64,000 nucleotides of DNA from Oscillospiraceae bacterium (GCA_902791215.1 CADAUZ010000003.1:1-64000), one strand, 5' to 3'; counted from the first letter of the stretch, positions 30,345 to 43,863 are shown. Program-made: numbers and translations. The notes: generated by a model from the letters alone, not told the origin.

Positions 30345-30482
30345 CGGGCCTGCCGCGCTGCCGCCTTCCTTCAGATTCCGCCTCATGACGGACACCTTTG
30401 GCTCTGGCTATGACCATCCCGCCGCCGGGCGGTCTCAGGTCTTTCCCCCTTTGGTAGCAGAACGTGTGCTCGCCGGGCGCAC
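30345..30482 (-). mobile_element. 5' remnant of a group II intron
   Basis: On the minus strand this begins GTGCGCCCGGCGAGC at 30482 and matches, base for base with scattered changes, the 5' domain I of the complete intron at 34795-36705 for about 130 bases (through GGCGGAATCTGAAGGAAGGC). Similarity then fades and no maturase or domain V follows. It lies right after the hairpin at 30490-30514, the same placement as the intact copy. It is a dead fragment. Confidence 0.8.
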
Positions 30483-30489
30483 AATTAAA

Positions 30490-30514
30490 GGACATCGGAT
30501 CAGCTCCGATGCCC
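30490..30514. terminator. Terminator hairpin beyond the zinc-ribbon nuclease gene
   Basis: GGACATCGGA pairs with TCCGATGCCC around a short loop, flanked by T-rich sequence on the plus strand (CTTTTAT) and TTTAATT on the minus strand. It lies about 40 bases after the nuclease stop codon and directly before the intron remnant. Confidence 0.65.
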
Positions 30515-30551: not shown

Positions 30552-31898
30552 TCATGATGCCAACAGGTTGTTAAGAATCCCGAGCTTTCCCATTAGCCTC
30601 TGTCCCATGTCTTCTTTATCTTTCTCTGTGACGCAGACGGAATCTATCAGCAGTACATCCCGCTCATTTGACTCGTACTCTCCATTCACGCCATAGTAAA
30701 CCGTGATCAAACGAATCCCGATTTTTGCACATGCCTCTCGTTTCCACTGATCATGCTCCAGTTTGTCCTGATGATAATACCACGCGCCCGGCTCAATGGC
30801 GATTTTGTGCTTTGGAAACACGATGTCAAGCTCTGCACCAATGAGTTGCCTGTCCCGGCGAAGCGGTTTCTCCTCCAGAACAGCCTCAAGAAGATCCGCC
30901 AAATACTTCTCCTGGGGAGAAGAATAGCTTGGCGGTCGGCAAGCGCATTTCGCCCCATGCAGAAGGTTTTCCGGAGTCATCTTGACCTGTCGTCCGCAGT
31001 TTAGGCACTCTACCTCGGTTTTCTCTTTACGGGATCGGTACTTTCCTATCACCATATAGTCTGAGTTGATCGCTTTCAGCCGTCTGTTCATTTCTTTACG
31101 CGTGAGTTTCATCGTGCCGGCACATACCGGGCAGCCATTCCCAGCGAGCAGATTGACAGGCATCGCCGTCCATTCATGTGAGCATCTGTTACATCTGCAG
31201 GCAATATGCGTGGCTTCGTTCACATATTTCCCGATTATTTCGATTTGTGGGTTAACGCCAAACAGCAGTTCGCGAAACTCTTCCAGGCTTCGTGCTCGCT
31301 CAGCTCGCAGTTTGTCGTTTGCACATTTGCGGCATCGCGGATGACTGAGCAGTCCATCCGGTGTCGAAGTCCATTCATAATGATGGATCATACATCGACA
31401 GCGTATTCTTTTGCGTGCTGTCACATACGGAGATAGTATCTCAATATTTGGATTTAATGCCTGTATTTGCTTCTTGAATTCATCTGTCGTCTTCTGTTTA
31501 TTTCCTGCCTCATTCGGACAATTGCTGTCACAGGGTTTCAAGAGGACGTGAGGTGTTGTCTCCCAGGTGTAGCCGCAGACCGCACAGCGGCAGCGGATGG
31601 GCTTATTGGCACCCAAGTATTTCGATTCCAGAATGATATTGGGTCTGATATCCCTTAGCTCAGCTGCAAATTGTGCATCCGTTTTCTTGATCCGGTCTGC
31701 GCATTTCGGACATCCACCGCCCTTTTTTGATCCGTTGCCCCGCAGTAATACAATAGGAGCAGCAGACCACTCATAACCGCAGTTACGGCATCTGCACTCC
31801 ACCTTTTTATTCAATCGCTCATATTGTGACAGCAGGATTACATTCGGGCTGCTCTGTGCGGCTTTTAACCGAAACTCTTCATCTGTCGTTCGTTTCAT
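30552..31898 (-). CDS. Zinc-ribbon-repeat protein with Vsr/DUF559-like nuclease domain
   Basis: 448 residues. Residues ~1-345 are five repeats of ~65-70 residues, each with a C-x-C-x2-C and a second C-x2-C pair after YEW/YTW/HEW (for example CRCRNCGYEW), as in DUF4379-like treble-clef or ribbon modules. The C-terminal ~100 residues look like a PD-(D/E)xK nuclease of the Vsr/DUF559 type: RRDRQLIGAELDIVFP, then KIAIEPGAWYYH, then a WKREACAKIGIRLITVYY tail. AAGGAG precedes the ATG, 32 bases after the serine recombinase stop, so it is the last gene of that operon. I infer a DNA-binding nuclease belonging to the mobile island; its target is unknown. Confidence 0.75.
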   Translation of the reverse strand: MKRTTDEEFRLKAAQSSPNVILLSQYERLNKKVECRCRNCGYEWSAAPIVLLRGNGSKKGGGCPKCADRIKKTDAQFAAELRDIRPNIILESKYLGANKPIRCRCAVCGYTWETTPHVLLKPCDSNCPNEAGNKQKTTDEFKKQIQALNPNIEILSPYVTARKRIRCRCMIHHYEWTSTPDGLLSHPRCRKCANDKLRAERARSLEEFRELLFGVNPQIEIIGKYVNEATHIACRCNRCSHEWTAMPVNLLAGNGCPVCAGTMKLTRKEMNRRLKAINSDYMVIGKYRSRKEKTEVECLNCGRQVKMTPENLLHGAKCACRPPSYSSPQEKYLADLLEAVLEEKPLRRDRQLIGAELDIVFPKHKIAIEPGAWYYHQDKLEHDQWKREACAKIGIRLITVYYGVNGEYESNERDVLLIDSVCVTEKDKEDMGQRLMGKLGILNNLLAS

Positions 31899-31930
31899 GT
31901 CTATCTCCTTACATTTACTGTATCGTTTTA

Positions 31931-33394
31931 TTAAACATTCCAGACTACTTCAGCGGTATCATTGCCGACTTCAATTCTGCGGATAAACTGGGCTGCCACA
32001 AGCTTTTTCTCGTCGAAACTGAGGTGGTCAAATACCAGCTTCTTCGGGAGTGTCGGTCTTCTGCTGTCCCGCTTTCTGGCCTCAAGCAGCTGCTGGCGTT
32101 CTTTGTCCAGACGCGCCAGTGCACGCTGAAGATAGGTTGGGCTCATATTCGGGCTCTCGCTGAATGCGTCAATTAAACGGTCTGCCCTGCGGTCGATTTC
32201 TTCAAGCTGGCTTGCGTATGTATCCACGCGCTTTTCTTCCACCGTTTCCTCCGGCACATTATCCAACATTTTCTGGATCTGTATGGCTATCTCTGATTCC
32301 AGTGCGGTCAAATCCGCCCGTATCACTGCATTGCACCTTGATACATTATATCGCCCGCTGCACTGGAGATAGCGCTGTCCGCTCTCTTTATATGCGATTT
32401 TGAGCGCATAGCCGCAGGAGGCGCACTTCAACACGCCTGAAAGCCAGGTATGCTTCCCCTTCCCGTTGTTTCCGATCTGTGTATTTCGGATCAGCTTATC
32501 CTGACAGCGCAGCCAGAGCTGTGCAGGAATAAACCCCACGCTGTTGAGTACGGAAACATTGTGATCCTTCACATCCGTGTACTTTTTGACCGAGCGTTCC
32601 CGTTTCCCGACAAGCAGGACACCATGTACACCGTCAAAATCCTCAGGCTCGGAGCAGATATTAGCTCCCAGCGCCTGGTAATGCAGTCTCACCTGCTCGT
32701 CCGCCTGGACATAGCAGGGCGTATGCAGCAGCCTGGACAGGGAGACATTGTCCCAGGTTGAACGTTTGGGTCCCGGTACACCCTCCTGATTCAATGCTTT
32801 TGCGATAGAGCCAAGTGTTGCTCCATCTTCGGCATACGATTCAAAGATACGCCGGACGATCTCGCTCTTTTCAGGTTCCACAAGCAGCGTCGGTACCGCA
32901 TGCCCCTGACTGTCTGTACAGCGTCCGATGGTAAAGCCGAACGGCGCAGGCCCTCCGGGCCAGGCACCGAGACTTGCGCGGCGGTAATAGTTGTCCTTGA
33001 CACGTTCTGCGGTGGTCTCCCTTTCCAGCTGCGCAAAGACCATGATGATATGCAGCATAGCCCGTCCCATCGGCGTGGAGGTATCGAAGTTTTCATTGAT
33101 GCTGGTAAACTCAACATGGTGGGCGCTCAGGATCTCCCAGAGCTTGCCGAAATCCGCCACAGAGCGTGAAAAACGGTCGAGACGATACACATAGAGCTTT
33201 TCGATTTTGCCGGACTGGATATCATTGAGCAGCTTTTGAAAGGAAGGACGGTGGGTATTCTTTCCGGAATACCCACGATCCATGTAAACGCTCAGTTCCT
33301 GTCCGGCAGCCTGCTTGCAGAACTCGATTTGACTTTCGATCGAAATACTGTTCTTTTTTTCAACAGACTGCCGCGCATAAACTGCCCAGGCCAT
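31931..33394 (-). CDS. Large serine recombinase
   Basis: A 487-residue serine integrase/resolvase. The N-terminal catalytic domain has the nucleophile in YARQSVEKKNS (Ser10), the arginine cluster YRLDRFSR (~70) and ERETTAERVKDNY (~125). It continues with the recombinase domain (GPAPFGFTIG, ~152), the zinc-ribbon (LKCASCGYALKI, ~325, and CSGRYNVSRC) and a coiled-coil tail. It would cut and exchange att sites for element excision and integration. Its ATG overlaps the upstream stop by one base (TGATG), so it is translationally coupled. Confidence 0.93.
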   Translation of the reverse strand: MAWAVYARQSVEKKNSISIESQIEFCKQAAGQELSVYMDRGYSGKNTHRPSFQKLLNDIQSGKIEKLYVYRLDRFSRSVADFGKLWEILSAHHVEFTSINENFDTSTPMGRAMLHIIMVFAQLERETTAERVKDNYYRRASLGAWPGGPAPFGFTIGRCTDSQGHAVPTLLVEPEKSEIVRRIFESYAEDGATLGSIAKALNQEGVPGPKRSTWDNVSLSRLLHTPCYVQADEQVRLHYQALGANICSEPEDFDGVHGVLLVGKRERSVKKYTDVKDHNVSVLNSVGFIPAQLWLRCQDKLIRNTQIGNNGKGKHTWLSGVLKCASCGYALKIAYKESGQRYLQCSGRYNVSRCNAVIRADLTALESEIAIQIQKMLDNVPEETVEEKRVDTYASQLEEIDRRADRLIDAFSESPNMSPTYLQRALARLDKERQQLLEARKRDSRRPTLPKKLVFDHLSFDEKKLVAAQFIRRIEVGNDTAEVVWNV

Positions 33395-33606
33395 CAGCCA
33401 GCCTTCTTTCTTTGCTCATCGGGCTGGAGAATTTGGGCACACAAACGCTTGATGGCGCGAAGCTGCTCCAGCCGTTCCTCTTCCGTAGAGTCAGGGTGCG
33501 TATGCTTGACTGTCATGTTCAGCCCTCCTGCCTCAAAGCTATGCGGGGACAGGGCCGATGATTCACTTTCCTGTGCCGGGAACGGAATTACAATCCGATT
33601 ATGCAT
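33394..33606 (-). CDS. Small conserved recombinase-operon protein
   Basis: A 70-residue charged protein starting at ATG 33606, preceded by AAGGAGG; a longer in-frame extension lacks a ribosome site. The last ~35 residues (STEEERLEQLRAIKRLCAQIL) form a likely amphipathic helix. Its start overlaps the stop of the upstream gene and its stop overlaps the recombinase ATG. Short proteins in this slot are frequent before large serine recombinases in Clostridia, perhaps as partner or directionality factors. Function not assigned. Confidence 0.6.
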   Translation of the reverse strand: MHNRIVIPFPAQESESSALSPHSFEAGGLNMTVKHTHPDSTEEERLEQLRAIKRLCAQILQPDEQRKKAG

Positions 33607-34090
33607 TGGCGCGCACCTCCTTCTGCAGGAACATGCGGGCGGCAAGCTCCTCGCCCAGAATTTGAACCCAGATGGAGTACGCGGTATACAGGATGTACTC
33701 GCTCCCAAGCTCGTCATAGGGATAGCTGTAGAGTCGGCCGTCCAGGAGGATCAAGAGGTTCCGGACTCGCTCCAGACGTATATTCATCTGCGTATCATAT
33801 CTGCTGTAACCGAGCTCATACACGCCATTTTTAAGAGTATAGCTATAGATTCTCCGATCAATGCAATAGTCCATTTCAGGCTTTATAAATACTCTGCGAA
33901 GCTTAAATGTTTCATCTGCGCCACTGATCGCCGCGACATAGACAGCGACACGCTCACGACCGGAAGACGGCACATAAACATCAAGATCCACAATATGGTC
34001 CGCATACTGCTCGATCTGAAACCTGCCGAGTGAAACACTGTTGGCAAAGTCGATTACGCAGCACCTCCCCCGCAGGTGTATTCGTACCAA
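33599..34090 (-). CDS. Uncharacterised recombinase-operon protein
   Basis: About 163 residues, with aromatic-rich stretches such as RRIYSYTLKNGVYELGYSRY (~80) and YILYTAYSIWVQIL (~132). No family recognised. The start is unclear: the frame opens at a TTG (34090) inside the upstream gene, while a GGGGGAGG lies at the end of that gene about 40 bases further down. The gene sits between the HTH protein and the 70-residue protein, overlapping both, which argues it belongs to the recombinase module. Confidence 0.6.
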   Translation of the reverse strand: MVRIHLRGRCCVIDFANSVSLGRFQIEQYADHIVDLDVYVPSSGRERVAVYVAAISGADETFKLRRVFIKPEMDYCIDRRIYSYTLKNGVYELGYSRYDTQMNIRLERVRNLLILLDGRLYSYPYDELGSEYILYTAYSIWVQILGEELAARMFLQKEVRANA

Positions 34091-34251
34091 TCGTAGAAGG
34101 GCTCTGCAGGAATGCGGATCCCACCGCGATAGAACACGACAGGGAATTCTCCGGAGTGGATAAGCTTCTCGGTGTCTCTCGCAGAGAGGCCAAGCAGGTA
34201 CCTGATATCCTCAGGCTTCAAGGCAGCGACAGCTTTGTTTTTCTTATTCAT
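34054..34251 (-). CDS. Excisionase-like helix-turn-helix protein
   Basis: A 65-residue protein from ATG 34251, set by AAGGAG six bases upstream. It has the winged-helix order of AlpA/Xis-type DNA-binding proteins: EDIRYLLGLSARDTEKLIHS (helix-turn-helix, ~15-34), then EFPVVFYRGGIRIPAEPFYDWY (strand, wing and helix). It is the first gene of the recombinase operon and may set excision direction or regulate transcription. Transcription starts at the promoter at 34440-34468. Confidence 0.75.
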   Translation of the reverse strand: MNKKNKAVAALKPEDIRYLLGLSARDTEKLIHSGEFPVVFYRGGIRIPAEPFYDWYEYTCGGGAA

Positions 34252-34375
34252 GAAGATCTCCTTATCTTTCTCATTCATGCCGCTGCAAGGTAAAGTTCAC
34301 TTGAAGAAAAGATTTTCTTGTGATACGATAAAAATGCAGACGGCTTTCTTTTCACGGGACTGCTTTCTGTATCAT

Positions 34376-34439: not shown

Positions 34440-34468
34440 ATTATAATCCAATATATTTATTTTGTCAA
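34440..34468 (-). promoter_or_regulatory. Consensus promoter of the recombinase operon
   Basis: Minus strand TTGACA (34463-34468) and TATAAT (34440-34445), 17 bases apart. It reads into GGAAGGAGGTCACTAAC and a ~180-base leader before the HTH start at 34251. Confidence 0.75.
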
Positions 34469-34549: not shown

Positions 34550-34571
34550 ACCGTTGTAGGAGGTGGTGCAT

Positions 34572-34787
34572 ATGCCGATGACGGAAAAAATCAGGATCTT
34601 GATGGTCAAATGTGGGAACATATCCGAGGCCGAGCTGGCAAGACGACTCAATACCAGCCCACAGAATTTTAATAAGAAGATGAAACGCGATAATTTTTCG
34701 GAGTCAGATCTCCGGGAAATTGCCGAAGCACTGAACTGTGACTTTGAAGCAAGTTTTCGTCTAAGGGATACCGGGGAACTAGTATAA
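34572..34787 (+). CDS. Small XRE-like helix-turn-helix regulator
   Basis: 71 residues starting at ATG 34572, eight bases after AGGAGG. It has a lambda-repressor-type fold: ILMVKCGNISEAELARRL (helices 1-2), NTSPQNFNKKMKRDNFSESD (recognition helix and turn), then LREIAEALNCDFEASF. Transcribed away from the recombinase operon. The palindrome between the two promoters is the natural target, so this is likely the island's immunity-type repressor. The group II intron now separates it from its former terminator at 36714-36742. Confidence 0.85.
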   Translation: MPMTEKIRILMVKCGNISEAELARRLNTSPQNFNKKMKRDNFSESDLREIAEALNCDFEASFRLRDTGELV

Positions 34788-34794
34788 CAAATAA

Positions 34795-36705
34795 TCGAGT
34801 AGGAGGGGCTGAATAAGCCCCGACCTCTCACACCACCGTGCGTACCGTTCGGTACACGGCGGTTCAACCGCATAAGTGCAGAGACTCGTACCGGTTAAGG
34901 ATACTGTAGTATCCGGCCTGTGCGAGTCTTTTGCTGGAAATCGCCGTCTGCACGCTTGCATGTGCGGCGCTTCTCCAGTAAGCTTTTCGGTAATATGCCA
35001 CTTCACAGGCTCGCCATTCTGGGAGGCCGAGCTTCATTAGGTTCTTCACCCTCGTTCTCGGTAGCTTCCACTGCTTCCAGATATACATCCGAAAGCGACG
35101 GCGCAGCCATTCATCCCAACTTTTCATTGTGTTCCGCATACTCGCTATGTAGAAGTAGCCAAGCCATCCGCGGATGAACACTTTCACCTTGTACATCACT
35201 ACACGGACGTTTCTGCCCTGGCTGCGGGAAGTCAGCTCTTTGAGCTTCTGCTCTGCTTTCTTCAAGGACTTCGCATGGGCACGGATGAACGCGCTATCCT
35301 TCCCCTTCCCAAGTGCAAAGCCCAGAAACTTAAAATTTCGCTTCGAGTACACGCTCACCACTCTGCTCTTTTCCATGTTCATCTTGAGCTTGAGTTTTCC
35401 CTCAAGGTATCTTCGACTGGACTCAAGCAGACGTTCTCCTGCCCTCGGTGTGTGGGCAAGCACAACGATGTCATCTGCATACCGAATCACATGGACGCCT
35501 CTGCCCTCCATCTCACGGTCAAACTTGTTGAGGTAGATGTTGGCAAGCAAGGGACTGAGCGGCCCTCCCTGCGGAGAGCCTTCTTCCGTCTTGATGCGAA
35601 GTCCGTTTTCCATCACGCCGCTTTTGAGAAATCTCTTGATGAGTTCAATCACGCGCTTGTCGTGGACTTCCTCTCGTATCATGTTCATCAGCAGATCATG
35701 ATTCAGTGTGTCGAAATACTTGGACAGATCAATGAGTACCGCTGTGGTATAGCCCTGCTCCGCGTATTCTTTCACTTTCTGAATCGCCATCTGTGCGCAT
35801 CTGTCCGGTCGGTAGCCGTAGCTCCCATCCGAGAACAGCGGTTCGTAGATTGGGGTCAACTGCTGGGCGATTGTCTGCTGGATGATGCGGTCTACGACTG
35901 TCGGGATTCCCAACTTTCGTATGCCGCCATCCGGCTTTGGGATTTCCTTCCGCTTTACCGGCTGCGGCTTGTATTTGCCGTTTCGGATCTGGTCAAGAAG
36001 TTCTTCCCTGTGTTCCCTCAGCCAAGGCAGGGCATCCTCCACAGTCATTCCGTCGACGCCGGGTGCTCCCTTGTTGGCCTTTACCCGCTTGTACGCCCTG
36101 TTCAGGTTGTCCCTGTCCAGTATGCGTTCCAGCAGGTCTGCACCGTCCGCTTCTTCGGTTTCCCGTCTGTCAGCACTCCGCGCTCCCGCATACTCTTCAT
36201 GTTCCGCACTATCCCTTTGCGGGCAGCCTCCGTTTCCGGGGTATTCTGCTTTCTTCATACTGACCTCCTTTCTCCGTTTCTTCGGACTTACGATTGTTCG
36301 GCCCTTCCCTCATTTTTTTTTGAGGTACTATGGCCTCTGCTGACTTCTCGCAGTTCGTTGTTACTATGGCTCGGCTCCCAGCCGCTCATCGCTTCTACCG
36401 GGATAACGGTATTCATCCGCCCGTGCCACCTGTGAGACCTCCCCGGGTACTCACACATTCTTTCGCTCTTATACCCGCCATGTTTACCGCAAGCGATTCC
36501 GTGCAGCTATTGGGCTTTAACTTGTATAGCAGTCTTACCCTCGCTTACAGCCTGACATGATTCCTGTTCGTTGGGCCAGAGTTTTGCCGCCGCCTTCCTT
36601 CAGATTCCGCCTCGCGACGGACACCCTTGGCTTTGGCTATGACCTTCCCGCTGCCGGGCGGTCTCGGGACTTTCACCCTTTAGAACGTGCGCTCGCCGGG
36701 CGCAC
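34795..36705 (-). mobile_element. Complete group IIC-type intron
   Basis: On the minus strand it begins GTGCGCCCGGCGAGCGCAC at 36705 and ends CCTCCTACTCGAT near 34795 (1911 bases). The 3' end has a clear domain V (GAACCGCCGTGTACC and GGTACGCACGGTGG arms, ~34815-34868) and domain VI (GGGGCTTATTCAGCCCC). The encoded maturase lacks an endonuclease domain. The site is directly 3' of a terminator hairpin (36714-36742), the target type of class C introns. The exact 3' base is uncertain by one or two. Confidence 0.9.
34864..36258 (-). CDS. ltrA: Group II intron reverse transcriptase/maturase
   Basis: 464 residues. The reverse transcriptase domain includes ANKGAPGVDGMT (~62), RKLGIPTVVDRIIQQ (~112), the RT3 block IDLSKYFDTLNHD (~170), EGSPQGGPLSPLLANIYL (~225) and the catalytic RYADDIVVL (~265). 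The maturase (GIIM) region follows, with IRGWLGYF (~365). The HNH endonuclease domain found in IIA/IIB introns is absent; the protein ends ILNRYESLHLCG, as in class C. It splices the host RNA and copies it into new sites. AAAGGAGG precedes the ATG. Confidence 0.95.
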   Translation of the reverse strand: MKKAEYPGNGGCPQRDSAEHEEYAGARSADRRETEEADGADLLERILDRDNLNRAYKRVKANKGAPGVDGMTVEDALPWLREHREELLDQIRNGKYKPQPVKRKEIPKPDGGIRKLGIPTVVDRIIQQTIAQQLTPIYEPLFSDGSYGYRPDRCAQMAIQKVKEYAEQGYTTAVLIDLSKYFDTLNHDLLMNMIREEVHDKRVIELIKRFLKSGVMENGLRIKTEEGSPQGGPLSPLLANIYLNKFDREMEGRGVHVIRYADDIVVLAHTPRAGERLLESSRRYLEGKLKLKMNMEKSRVVSVYSKRNFKFLGFALGKGKDSAFIRAHAKSLKKAEQKLKELTSRSQGRNVRVVMYKVKVFIRGWLGYFYIASMRNTMKSWDEWLRRRFRMYIWKQWKLPRTRVKNLMKLGLPEWRACEVAYYRKAYWRSAAHASVQTAISSKRLAQAGYYSILNRYESLHLCG

Positions 36706-36713
36706 TATTTTAA

Positions 36714-36851: not shown

Positions 36852-36990
36852 AGCATGATACCCACCTATGATAGAAGTTAACTCTATCCTGGGCCATGCC
36901 TACTTTAATTAAATATGGGTTGCTCAGTGATCACCGAAACTGAGCCGCCCATAATGATGGCAACAGATGTATGTAATCTGTTGCTTTTTT
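36852..36990 (+). ncRNA. Structured leader RNA ending in an intrinsic terminator
   Basis: The first ~140 bases after the promoter contain a hairpin GCTCAGT...ACTGAGC (about 36922-36945) enclosed by ATGGG/CCCAT, then a perfect terminator: GCAACAGAT (36960-36968), loop, ATCTGTTGC (36976-36984), TTTTTT. It ends 45 bases before the downstream ribosome site. It is either an attenuator controlling the two recombinase-like genes or a free small RNA. No known family recognised. Confidence 0.6.
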
Positions 36991-37034
36991 GCGCTCTTTT
37001 TCGTGGTCATTCTGCACCCGGAAAGGACGTAAAA

Positions 37035-38477
37035 ATGATATTATCAAGCATTACCTATTATGGCCTCACTATCTATTACCGCCGCGAGAACCGCAATGAC
37101 GGCGATAGGATGGCGTTATCTCTTCGCGACGATAAAGCCATCTTGGCGGAGAAAAATCTACGAATACCTAAAAATCTATCCTCGTCTTGTGATAACGAGA
37201 TTGCAAATGTACTGACGCCCAGGTTTTTACGATTATGCTTATCGGTCAAAAACCCAGTCCTGTCCCGCGAGGAGTGGATCCCACGCCTTCCCCTGGCTGT
37301 AATCTGGGCAGCAGATAACGCGGATTTGGCACATCACTACAAATGGTCAAAATCTGTAATCACAGAGTACACTCGCGCGATGGACTGGCTGATCAGTAAA
37401 TATGGATCTAAAACTCTGGCAGAGCTGACGCCCGCACAAATCGCCTATGAGATGCAAACTGCCAGTGATCGTACAGTCGCATCAAGAGTACGTGCGATAA
37501 CAGCACTCTACCAATATGAGCAATATTGCGGCGTAATCTCCGCAAACCCATGGGCCGATTACCGCTATCGCCCAACACGCAAGCGTAAAAAGCCTGAGCA
37601 GTTGGTTAATACGCATCTTGCACAAACGATGTTCACACACGAGCAATTGTATCTGATTTTAAAGTATTGCAGTGATAAGCTCAACACTGTGATGGGGGCC
37701 TGGTATGCCGGATTAATAACGCTACTCACAACTTTTATATCAGTCGACGAGCTTTGCGCACAAACGCGCAACTGCCTCTGCCGCAAAGACAGCTTGCCGG
37801 TATATTATTTCAAATTGAAACATGTGCGGGTCAAGAAGGGCAAAAACTACACAAACGATACAATTATCAATCCTTTAAAGCTGCGTGAATCACCGTTAAG
37901 CAGTATCGCATTGCGTGCGTGGTTGCTGGTATTAGGGCAGGATAGGGCCAGCAATCTACCGTTGATCCCACGGGCTGATAACGCAAAACGTTTTGCGTCT
38001 CCAGCCGACTTTGAGAAATGGGCTCGTGGTATCATCCGTGATATCATAGGTATCGACCTTCCTCCTCAGCAGCTTAAGAGTATGGTGCTTAACACAGTGG
38101 AGCGCAATTACCGACAAGCAGGCATGGAGGAGCAGGAAATACGGTATCTGCGTGGTATGACTCTGACAACAACCGGTGCAAATAGCTACACGGAGTTTAC
38201 CTCCGATATGATGTGTTACCACCTGGCACAGGTTATGGATCAGGCGCTCAACCGTATCATAACCACGACAACACCTACGTTGGAACCATTCACGCATCAA
38301 ATACGTCACAATGGTCAGGAGCTGTCCCTTGCCGATCCCGCCGGGCAGCATTGCCAGTACCGCTTGCGTGTAAAATTAACAGCAAAACAAGACTGCATAT
38401 TTGGTTACCAGGTACGCAACAGGCAAGGTGGGTTGAACATATTAACCGAGCTGCAAAATAACAGTAGAGAGGTATAA
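37035..38477 (+). CDS. Degenerate tyrosine-recombinase-like protein
   Basis: 480 residues from ATG 37035 (AAAGGA upstream). Residues ~95-200 resemble the SAM-like core-binding domain of tyrosine integrases (ITEYTRAMDWLISKYGSKT, then ASRVRAITALYQYEQYC). The C-terminal half follows the catalytic-domain pattern but the key residues have changed: the Arg-I position reads TTFISVDELC, and the HxxR box reads KSMVLNTVERNY. Only a candidate nucleophile Tyr remains, in GANSYTEF (~395). I infer a regulatory or accessory recombinase. Its stop and the next ATG are two bases apart. Confidence 0.6.
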   Translation: MILSSITYYGLTIYYRRENRNDGDRMALSLRDDKAILAEKNLRIPKNLSSSCDNEIANVLTPRFLRLCLSVKNPVLSREEWIPRLPLAVIWAADNADLAHHYKWSKSVITEYTRAMDWLISKYGSKTLAELTPAQIAYEMQTASDRTVASRVRAITALYQYEQYCGVISANPWADYRYRPTRKRKKPEQLVNTHLAQTMFTHEQLYLILKYCSDKLNTVMGAWYAGLITLLTTFISVDELCAQTRNCLCRKDSLPVYYFKLKHVRVKKGKNYTNDTIINPLKLRESPLSSIALRAWLLVLGQDRASNLPLIPRADNAKRFASPADFEKWARGIIRDIIGIDLPPQQLKSMVLNTVERNYRQAGMEEQEIRYLRGMTLTTTGANSYTEFTSDMMCYHLAQVMDQALNRIITTTTPTLEPFTHQIRHNGQELSLADPAGQHCQYRLRVKLTAKQDCIFGYQVRNRQGGLNILTELQNNSREV

Positions 38478-38479
38478 AT

Positions 38480-39973
38480 ATGATTATGAATAGCATGTCC
38501 TTGATCGATTATTGGAATCACCATAAATCGGATATAGCAGAAAAAAGGGGATGGAAAGCCGCTGTTCTGCGGGGGCAAAGTACCTTGGACGCCTACTCAT
38601 CCAAAATGGAGCAAATGGCACGGCTATTTCCGGAGACCTTTGTCAACAAGTCTTTCACCAAGGTTTCCTTACGCGAGCTTCTCGCCATTGTGGATAACAT
38701 GCGCAAATCGGACAACAGCCGGTATGCTCAGGCCTCTAAAGTGAGCTATCTTGTCGTCCTGCATGATCTGTTTTGGTTTGCGAATAACAGCGGTCACGCA
38801 GTCGATCCTTTCGCCTGTTTGCAGTCTCGCGGATCTCGTGGCAGCAGTTCAAAACTGGGCGAGATCAGGCAGGTTGTTGAAAAAATTGGCAGGGGTGATT
38901 TCAGCAGGAATGAATCCATTGATAAGCTTCGATCAGTGCTGCAGCATAAAAGGATTCGCCGATCCATGTCGCCGGTCGAAATACAGCGTTTTCTTCGACT
39001 GGTTCAAAATGGTATTCGAGACGATGGCAGATACCTCGGTCTTGCGCTGATCTTCTACCTGGGTTCTCGCCCCGGCGAAACGCGTGCATTGCGCTGGGAG
39101 GATATCATCTATTGGCAGGATGGCAGACGTTTCTATTGCATAAGCGATGCTCTTGGAGTGTCTACGGATGCAAACGGCAAAACCAAGACAGACAATGGTT
39201 TCAGAAAAGTCCCGGAGCATTGTGAGCTGCGTGCGTTAGTAGACGAACGCTATGAATTCATTACTGCTCAGACCGGCCAAGAGCCCACCGGGTATATCTG
39301 TTGTCCCGGCAACGATTTTGGCAAACCTTGTACCTATTACGATTTTGCATCATTTGCTGATAAGCAAGTTTTCAGCATGCTGGACAGCGATTACAAATGT
39401 GGTATGGCCGCAGAATTCATGCTTGCACAGCTTACTGATACGCATGATCGCGATTGTGAGGATACTCTGACTCTTTATTGCCTGCGCCACACCTTTTATA
39501 CGTGGCTAGCTACTTCAACTCCGCTCAGTGAAATGGAGAGGGCATACCTGATGGGGCATGAGATGATTGATAATAATCGTGATATACGTTCTCGATTCAA
39601 TGACAATGATCTTCTCGCCCGCATCGGTGATGATATGGACCGCTTTGTCTGTCTCCCTGATTATCACCCTGATAAGCGTATTACCCTTGGTCCTGACGGC
39701 GTCGGCAATGTACACGCGGTCGGTGACACCGGGATCCAGGAATACTATTTATCTCTGTCCAAGGGAGATACTGCCGAGATAGAAATCGAACTGTCTTCCG
39801 ATCATGCGGGTACCGAGACCGTTCTCAAGGCTCTCAGTCCAATTAAAGGAAACCTTGATGTGCAGGTATCCCTGGAACAAATTATTAATCTCGGCGAGCC
39901 TGACCGACGTCCCCGCCGTGTCTCCAGTGACTGTGATCGATGGCTTTATCTCACCCAAGGCTATGTGAAATAA
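38480..39973 (+). CDS. Tyrosine recombinase lacking the visible nucleophile
   Basis: 497 residues, started after GAGAGG. The integrase catalytic domain is clear: FYLGSRPGETRALRWEDI (Arg-I, ~193-210), a Lys-bearing strand (GKTKTDNGFRKVP), LYCLRHTFYTW (Arg-II with the usual first His replaced by Tyr) and YLMGHEMIDNN (the His). The expected Tyr ~10 residues later is not there; the sequence reads RDIRSRFNDNDLL. A ~110-residue C-terminal extension follows. It is transcribed with the preceding gene, whose protein has the converse pattern. It may integrate or invert DNA only as a partner. Confidence 0.7.
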   Translation: MIMNSMSLIDYWNHHKSDIAEKRGWKAAVLRGQSTLDAYSSKMEQMARLFPETFVNKSFTKVSLRELLAIVDNMRKSDNSRYAQASKVSYLVVLHDLFWFANNSGHAVDPFACLQSRGSRGSSSKLGEIRQVVEKIGRGDFSRNESIDKLRSVLQHKRIRRSMSPVEIQRFLRLVQNGIRDDGRYLGLALIFYLGSRPGETRALRWEDIIYWQDGRRFYCISDALGVSTDANGKTKTDNGFRKVPEHCELRALVDERYEFITAQTGQEPTGYICCPGNDFGKPCTYYDFASFADKQVFSMLDSDYKCGMAAEFMLAQLTDTHDRDCEDTLTLYCLRHTFYTWLATSTPLSEMERAYLMGHEMIDNNRDIRSRFNDNDLLARIGDDMDRFVCLPDYHPDKRITLGPDGVGNVHAVGDTGIQEYYLSLSKGDTAEIEIELSSDHAGTETVLKALSPIKGNLDVQVSLEQIINLGEPDRRPRRVSSDCDRWLYLTQGYVK

Positions 39974-41955: not shown

Positions 41956-42370
41956 TATGCTTTCATACTATATAAGTTTGTTTTCGCTCATCGACAACTG
42001 CTCTCCATTGGGACCTCAGGTGGCGTCAATTCTCCAAAAAAATACCGGTTTTGAGGTCCCGGTTTTTGGCTTTGTCGAAGGAGGCAAAAACCCGCAAAGC
42101 GTTGATATGACTGGAGTTTCACTCCCTACACGCAGCGATAGTCTCGACTGGAAGGGAATCCCGGCCGGGCAGATCACGCGGCGGGTGCTGGACCGGGTGC
42201 AGCCGGGTAGCATCGTTCTGTTCCATAACGCTGCCGAACATACGCCCGAGGCTTTGCCGGCGATCCTCGAGTCGCTGCTGAACGACGGCTACCGCATTGT
42301 ACCGGTATCACAGATCCTTCTGGAGGGTGACTGCTTCATCGACAGTACCGGCAGGCAGTGCAGACATTAA
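41942..42370 (+). pseudogene. 3' fragment of a polysaccharide deacetylase gene
   Basis: Only the last ~79 codons (from about 42134) are deacetylase: SDSLDWKGIPAGQITRRVL then PGSIVLFHNAAEHTPEALP and GYRIVPVSQILLEG match the C-terminal half of NodB-type enzymes, including the LFHN motif. The catalytic N-terminal half is missing. The preceding ~190 bases read as an open frame but have no deacetylase character and include the 27-bp repeat. This marks the right junction of the island, which broke the gene; the 5' part is not in this window. Confidence 0.8.
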
Positions 42371-42468: not shown

Positions 42469-43863
42469 ATGAAGTATACCAAAAAGAGCGGTCTTGCACT
42501 GCTGCCGTTTCTCGTGTTCATCGTCATCTATCTCGGTGCTGGTCTGATCTACCAGGCCAAAGGCGAGGAAATGGCCTTCTACATGTTTCCCTCGGTCACG
42601 GCCATGTTCATCGCTGTACTGGTCGCCTTCTGCATGAGCAAGGGTACGATCAACGAAAAGTTTGAAACCTTCTCCAGAGGCGCCGCGAACGTTGACGTGT
42701 TCACCATGCTCATCATCTATATCCTCGCCGGTGCGTTTGCAACAGTCGCCAGTGAAATGGGCGCGAAGGACGCAACCGTCAACCTCGGCCTCTCGCTGGT
42801 GCCGCCCTCGCTGCTGGCAGCCGGCATGTTTGTGATCGCCGCCTTCTTTGGGACGGCAACCGGTACATCCATGGGCACCATCTCCGCGCTGATCCCCATT
42901 GCCATCGGCGTTGCGGAAAAGGGCGGGCTCTCCCCCACTGTGGTGATCACGGCGGTCGTGGGCGGCGGCATGTTCGGTGACAATCTCTCCATGATCTCCG
43001 ACACCACCATCGCTGCCACGCGCTCCCAGCGTGTGGAGATGCGCGACAAGTTCCGCGTGAACTTTCTCATCGCCCTGCCCGCCGCCGTTGTCACCCTCAT
43101 CCTGCTGCTGGTCTTCGGTCGTCCGGAGACTGCCGCGCCGTTGGAGGATCTGTCCTTCAGTCTTGTGAAGATCATCCCCTACCTTGCGGTTCTGATCCTC
43201 GCCCTGTGCGGGCTGAACGTGTTTCTGGTTCTGCTGATCGGTATTTTCTCCGCCGGGATCATCGGCATACTGACCGGCTCCATGGACATTGCGGGCTTTG
43301 CCCAGGCCATCTATACCGGCTTCTGCGGCATGAATGAGGTCTTCTTCCTCACGCTTCTGTGCGGCGGCATGTCGGAAATGATCGCCAAAAACGGCGGCAT
43401 CAACTGGATCATCGACAAGCTGCGCGGCATCATGAAGGATAACAAATCTGCCCAGCTCGGCATCGCGGCGCTCGTCTCCGCCTGCGACTGCGCTACCGCA
43501 AACAACACCGTCGCCATCATCGTGGCGGGCGACATGGCACGCGAGGTGTCCCATGAGCTCAAGGTCGACCCGCGCCGCACCGCTTCCCTGCTGGATATTT
43601 TCTCCTGCGTTTTCCAAGGCGTCATCCCTTATGGCGCGCAGCTGGTCGTGGCGGCAAGCCTCGCCAACCAGGCTTCTGAAACGGGCGCTGTATACTCTGC
43701 CGCCGGACTTGTGGGCAGCATGTGGTACTGCTGGATTCTTGCACTGTTCGGACTGCTGTCCATCTTTGTGCCCTTTGCCGACAGCGTGATCCGCAAGGAC
43801 CCCTGGAACTGGGAATATGACTGCCCCGAATCGAAGGTCGCGGCAAAGAAAGCGGCAAAGTGA
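42469..43863 (+). CDS. NhaC-family Na+/H+ antiporter
   Basis: A 464-residue membrane protein with about twelve helices. Family signatures: FGTATGTSMGTISALIPIA (~125-145), GGGMFGDNLSMISDTTIA (~162-180), and the corresponding second-half region ACDCATANNTVAIIVAG (~340). NhaC members exchange Na+ (or an organic acid counter-ion) for H+ at the cell membrane. AGGAGG precedes the ATG, with its own promoter and a strong terminator after the stop. Substrate not determined. Confidence 0.88.
   Translation: MKYTKKSGLALLPFLVFIVIYLGAGLIYQAKGEEMAFYMFPSVTAMFIAVLVAFCMSKGTINEKFETFSRGAANVDVFTMLIIYILAGAFATVASEMGAKDATVNLGLSLVPPSLLAAGMFVIAAFFGTATGTSMGTISALIPIAIGVAEKGGLSPTVVITAVVGGGMFGDNLSMISDTTIAATRSQRVEMRDKFRVNFLIALPAAVVTLILLLVFGRPETAAPLEDLSFSLVKIIPYLAVLILALCGLNVFLVLLIGIFSAGIIGILTGSMDIAGFAQAIYTGFCGMNEVFFLTLLCGGMSEMIAKNGGINWIIDKLRGIMKDNKSAQLGIAALVSACDCATANNTVAIIVAGDMAREVSHELKVDPRRTASLLDIFSCVFQGVIPYGAQLVVAASLANQASETGAVYSAAGLVGSMWYCWILALFGLLSIFVPFADSVIRKDPWNWEYDCPESKVAAKKAAK

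Follow-up and report, generated by a model that had tools for sequence, protein, structure and literature searches.

A stretch of 64,000 nucleotides from an Oscillospiraceae bacterium (GCA_902791215.1, CADAUZ010000003.1:1-64000), referred to here as the window, carries a large serine recombinase gene in tight arrangement with a gene encoding an array of zinc ribbons and a Vsr-like nuclease domain. The original prediction, made from the sequence of the window, took these genes as one module of an undescribed kind, in which the nuclease would recognise a long target such as an empty att site, a rival element or foreign DNA. The locus raises two questions: where the recombinase acts, and whether the nuclease belongs to it.

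Organization of the recombinase operon

ORF and domain calls place five genes in one compact operon on the minus strand (34278-30552). This is the gene arrangement that had been predicted. All five genes are co-directional, and one promoter lies upstream of them. The operon and its immediate surroundings comprise the following features.

34563-34787, plus strand: divergent Cro/C1-type regulator adjoining the operon promoter (HTH_26, 1.1e-5)
34440-34468, minus strand: sigma-70 consensus promoter upstream of the operon, TTGACA-17-TATAAT, matching 12 of 12 consensus positions
34054-34278, minus strand: excisionase-like HTH protein of 74 aa, candidate Xis or regulator (HTH_17, 0.0011; TIGR01764, 8e-4; both under the cut-off)
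33599-34090, minus strand: ORF for a 163-aa protein, overlapping the HTH gene, with a TTG as uncertain start
33394-33606, minus strand: ORF for a small protein of 70 aa, whose conserved core is the last 40 aa (33394-33516), from an ATG at 33516
31931-33394, minus strand: large serine recombinase (Resolvase, 1.9e-37; Recombinase, 9e-15; zinc ribbon, 4e-8)
30552-31898, minus strand: homing-endonuclease-like protein of 448 aa, with five CapR/DUF4379 zinc ribbons and an EDxHD/Vsr-like C-terminal domain (about 30552-30935)
30493-30511: terminator-like stem-loop after the last operon gene

The details of gene spacing in the original prediction also held: the small ORF is coupled to the recombinase start by a TGATG overlap, and the gap between the recombinase stop codon and the 448-aa gene is exactly 32 bases. 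The recombinase matched the Resolvase, Recombinase and zinc-ribbon domains, and the call of an excisionase-like HTH is borne out by the match to the TIGR01764 excisionase domain, though this lies under the model cut-off. By its match to the consensus, the promoter is of the vegetative type and not of the sporulation type.

The 163-aa protein had been proposed as a gene to test for co-occurrence with the recombinase, but its relatives are weak (about 30% identity) and sit in XRE/tyrosine-integrase cassettes of the same genus, and we discarded it as a marker of the module. A protein of about 40 aa lies directly upstream of the recombinase in 8 of the 12 related recombinases examined. The 40-aa protein that overlaps the recombinase start in the window is a candidate recombination directionality factor, and the direction of recombination could be set either by this conserved protein or by the HTH protein.

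Two group II introns have left traces beside the operon. A full intron with its reverse transcriptase (34864-36258) occupies 34792-36709 on the minus strand, and genomes elsewhere in the genus have copies about 85% identical to it. Of a second intron, a 5′ remnant of 130 nt (30357-30486, minus strand) lies just past the stem-loop behind the nuclease gene, a placement that resembles the habit of group IIC introns. We had considered the 125-bp repeat that these sequences form (30357-30486 and 36586-36709) as the ends of an element, and rejected it, since the repeat corresponds to group II intron 5′ ends and its first copy is a remnant.

Related recombinases reside in elements that split a deacetylase gene

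Relatives of the recombinase (46-54% identity, with further ones at 37-41%) are found in elements flanked by the two halves of a PdaB-like polysaccharide deacetylase gene. These elements split the gene within one codon, that of the D between QWDV and SLDW, and the same split recurs in relatives that belong to other families of the order. In all 13 genomes checked, including the present one, joining the halves at a common GA dinucleotide yields one in-frame gene. The elements range in size from 3.8 kb (G193), 4.3 kb (G400), 9.9 kb (G060) and 12.8 kb (G300) through 13.6 kb (G462), 18.3 kb (G251) and 19.5 kb (G263) to 59 kb (G123). In G060, 80 bases separate the small gene and the recombinase from the 3′ part of the deacetylase gene, and the 5′ part is 9.9 kb away.

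The corresponding right junction in the window consists of these features.

42092-42136: inner attR arm, the element's right end; also conserved in the G060 element, and forming an inverted-symmetric pair with the attL arm of contig C9
42137-42138, plus strand: GA crossover dinucleotide at attR, common to both junctions in 13 of 13 genomes
42137-42370, plus strand: 3′ half of the deacetylase gene, whose 5′ half is at G000:C9:21715-22251, minus strand
42469-43863, plus strand: NhaC-like antiporter gene in the right host flank, which directly follows the intact deacetylase gene in the empty-site genomes G056, G048 and G127

In the present genome, the 5′ half and the attL arm are thus on contig C9, while the 3′ half and the attR arm are in the window (contig C3). 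With the two halves on different contigs, either the element measures 64 kb or more, provided that it includes both contig ends, or a later rearrangement has separated them. The inner attL and attR arms form inverted repeats that agree at 33 of 46 positions both in the present genome and in G060, a value reached by none of 20000 shuffles. The arms of eight genomes were put to this test, and in seven of these no shuffle reached the observed value. Inverted-symmetric arms are expected of the attP sites of serine recombinases.

Taken together, it is very probable that the operon controls the integration and excision of an integrative element that splits the PdaB-like deacetylase gene at GA, with the nuclease as a separate selfish or cargo gene. 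The large serine recombinase would insert the element at GA inside the deacetylase gene of endospore-forming bacteria, and departure of the element would restore the gene in frame. That the recombinase of this particular operon acts at the deacetylase site is suggested by its association with the split gene, its orientation and the conserved arm.

Some other contents of the presumed element are worth recording. Two adjacent, divergent genes on the plus strand (36915-38477 and 38480-39973) are tyrosine-recombinase-like, with marginal or no family matches. On the element side of attR, an exopolysaccharide cluster (529-22712, minus strand) encodes glycosyltransferases, EpsG, a sugar transferase and Polysacc_synt. 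It may be cargo; the G060 element has a similar polysaccharide gene beside its recombinase.

Is the split gene restored during sporulation?

The best model for the deacetylase is PdaB (TIGR02764). Because its score of 200 bits lies under the cut-off of 237, a role of this enzyme in sporulation is likely but not certain. The sporulation gene spoIVA was present in all 16 genomes tested, and among the controls the SpoIVA search matched B. subtilis only.

Elements that split sigK, spsM, spoVFB, gerE and yabG are known to leave during sporulation (skin, SP-beta, vfbin, gin and yin). The vegetative promoter of our operon counts against a developmental role, but in SP-beta (PMC5595907) and in the skin element of C. 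difficile (PMC5025042) the recombinase is likewise constitutive, and it is the directionality factor that is controlled by sporulation. Like these five, the element described here encodes a large serine recombinase and interrupts a single gene in an endospore-forming host, and joining the halves precisely restores the reading frame, which for our element is an in silico result. Small candidate directionality proteins are a further common point, here the 40-aa and HTH proteins. The target is different, however, in that it is a PdaB-like deacetylase gene, split in many genera of one order by elements of 3.8 to at least 59 kb, and sporulation-linked excision is a property of the known elements, whereas ours is read from its sequence. 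A search of the literature outside subscription papers turned up no publication in which a polysaccharide deacetylase gene, or pdaB, serves as attB or is the sporulation gene that an element splits. The element looks like a variant of the skin/gin/yin type of sporulation-gene-intervening element, with a target gene that none of the papers searched names. By analogy with skin, SP-beta, gin and yin, excision could restore the deacetylase gene, probably during sporulation, a proposal to which we give roughly even chances.

The distribution and condition of the split genes bear on this proposal. A survey of the genus found about 65 species with an intact deacetylase gene and about six with halves only. 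In three genomes (G029:C8, G039:C8 and G006:C114), an intact gene is accompanied by one or two stray 3′ halves, which are possible scars of past integrations. When split and intact genes were compared for selection (dN/dS), constraint on the two halves equalled that on the intact genes, a pattern that a recent insertion would also give.

These observations can also be read in terms of an ordinary integrative element, which uses a conserved gene as its attB and merely inactivates it, without any developmental excision. Such an element would suit the consensus vegetative promoter of the operon and the heterogeneous and large contents of the elements. Moreover, most species of the genus have an empty site, so insertion is not a fixed developmental device, and the intact copies with stray 3′ halves are what casual comings and goings would give. 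However, the halves remain open and in frame with each other in all 13 genomes, the three split genes that we tested have no excess of amino-acid changes, and the known elements of the same layout in spore formers do leave during sporulation. We regard simple inactivation as quite possible, at somewhat less than an even chance. A far more ambitious reading extends developmental excision to the whole order: the recombinase clade would be specialised on one spore-wall gene as a developmental switch, and the nuclease would cut rival elements or empty sites at the same locus, giving drive. We think this combination most unlikely.

So far, developmental DNA excision in spore formers is known for a small number of genes, for the most part in Bacillus and a few species of Clostridium. 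Should the deacetylase splits indeed be excised in sporulation, the phenomenon would reach one more gene, many genera of one order, and elements as small as 3.8 kb. As the GA core and the attP arms could be read in up to 13 genomes, recombination assays should be straightforward, and the recombinases are new serine integrases whose landing site in the genome is conserved.

The nuclease fits a known homing endonuclease family

The predicted zinc-ribbon array was recovered by domain search, in which the 448-aa protein has five zinc modules matching CapR (7e-14) and DUF4379 (4.5e-9); module 3 no longer has the full set of cysteines. The Vsr-like call for the C-terminal domain is likewise supported. 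The E, D, E and K positions of this domain are invariant, and the H is nearly invariant in one of two alignments. A search with a profile of the domain reached I-Bth0305I at E 9e-7, and Vsr weakly. Modelled with AlphaFold2, the C-terminal domain reached a pTM of 0.69 from a shallow alignment, as scans of IMG/VR with the single protein or an alignment gave few or no relatives. Foldseek ranked Vsr first for this model (probability 1.00), and VIA-align gave a Z of 9.2 to Vsr (102 residues, rmsd 2.9) and of 8.8 to I-Bth0305I, with other PD-(D/E)xK-like structures close in Z. Unlike the C-terminal domain alone, the model of the full-length protein (pTM 0.30) gave no useful fold match.

Most relatives of the nuclease are phage genes. 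The protein matches phrog_559 (7.7e-78), and relatives occur in 462 phage records, several of them annotated as homing endonuclease or intron-encoded, and some inside introns. The combination of CapR/DUF4379 ribbons with an EDxHD/Vsr-like domain was described in 2025 as a large, previously unrecognised outgroup of the EDxHD/Vsr homing endonucleases (PMC12350094), so the nuclease is not of an undescribed type. The members of that outgroup have three to five zinc modules of about 60 aa followed by an EDxHD/Vsr-like domain of about 100 aa, and our protein has the same layout with five modules. They are, however, encoded in phage group II introns and by related genes, whereas here the gene is a free-standing one of a chromosomal element and follows a serine recombinase gene. 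I-Bth0305I (an EDxHD homing endonuclease, PDB 3r3p) and Vsr (1cw0, 1vsr) share the fold of the catalytic domain and the E/D/E/H pattern with our nuclease, but not its DNA-binding part, which is the CapR ribbon array. By sequence and modelled structure, the nuclease thus fits a new member of the known family, in which the ribbons would bind a long target and the Vsr-like domain would cut it.

The nuclease is probably a passenger of the element

If the nuclease belonged to the recombinase module, the two would be expected near each other in other genomes. No relative of the nuclease was found around the 14 related recombinases examined, including those of G060 and G123. At the DNA level the G060 recombinase gene shows 80% identity, and the match to G060 does not extend past the recombinase stop codon; no allele of the locus lacking the nuclease gene could be recognised. 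Conversely, a strong relative of the nuclease (E<=1e-18) is present in 7 of 394 genomes of the order, the present one included, and a recombinase profile applied to 10-20 kb of context around about 10 chromosomal nuclease relatives detected no serine recombinase within about 10 kb, as far as the contigs reach. Relatives of the nuclease therefore do occur far from recombinases, contrary to the module as originally predicted. Because neither gene is found near relatives of the other, we regard the nuclease as most likely a passenger: an independent gene, selfish or carried as cargo, that rides in the present copy of the element. The gene would have been acquired downstream of the recombinase, and among the elements examined it is found solely in this one.

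The tight spacing of the genes speaks for nuclease and recombinase being expressed together, and counts against the passenger view. Together with the shared orientation, the single upstream promoter and the conserved catalytic residues of the nuclease, the 32-base gap is what one functional module would show, the ribbon array then recognising an att site or a rival element. Against the 14 recombinases that lack a nuclease relative, the closest of them G060, and the approximately 10 nuclease relatives that lack a nearby serine recombinase, we consider such a module very unlikely. The nuclease might instead be a defence gene, carried as cargo and directed against the DNA of phages or plasmids. 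Defence genes are common on mobile elements, and an array of ribbons could recognise a target that is long and specific. Yet no PADLOC model matched the nuclease (absence from that library does not exclude defence), its relatives are mostly phages' own genes, some of them within introns, and no modification or immunity partner lies beside it. A defence role is therefore unlikely too, and a passenger homing endonuclease remains our preferred reading. For the nuclease, a false lead is thereby cleared away, and the homing endonuclease family described in 2025 gains a chromosomal case.

Four free-standing chromosomal relatives of the nuclease (L119, L121, L208 and L209) have a tRNA gene (tRNA-Ser, Tyr/Thr, Leu and Pro) within about 0.3-1.1 kb, which may point to tRNA-linked targets.
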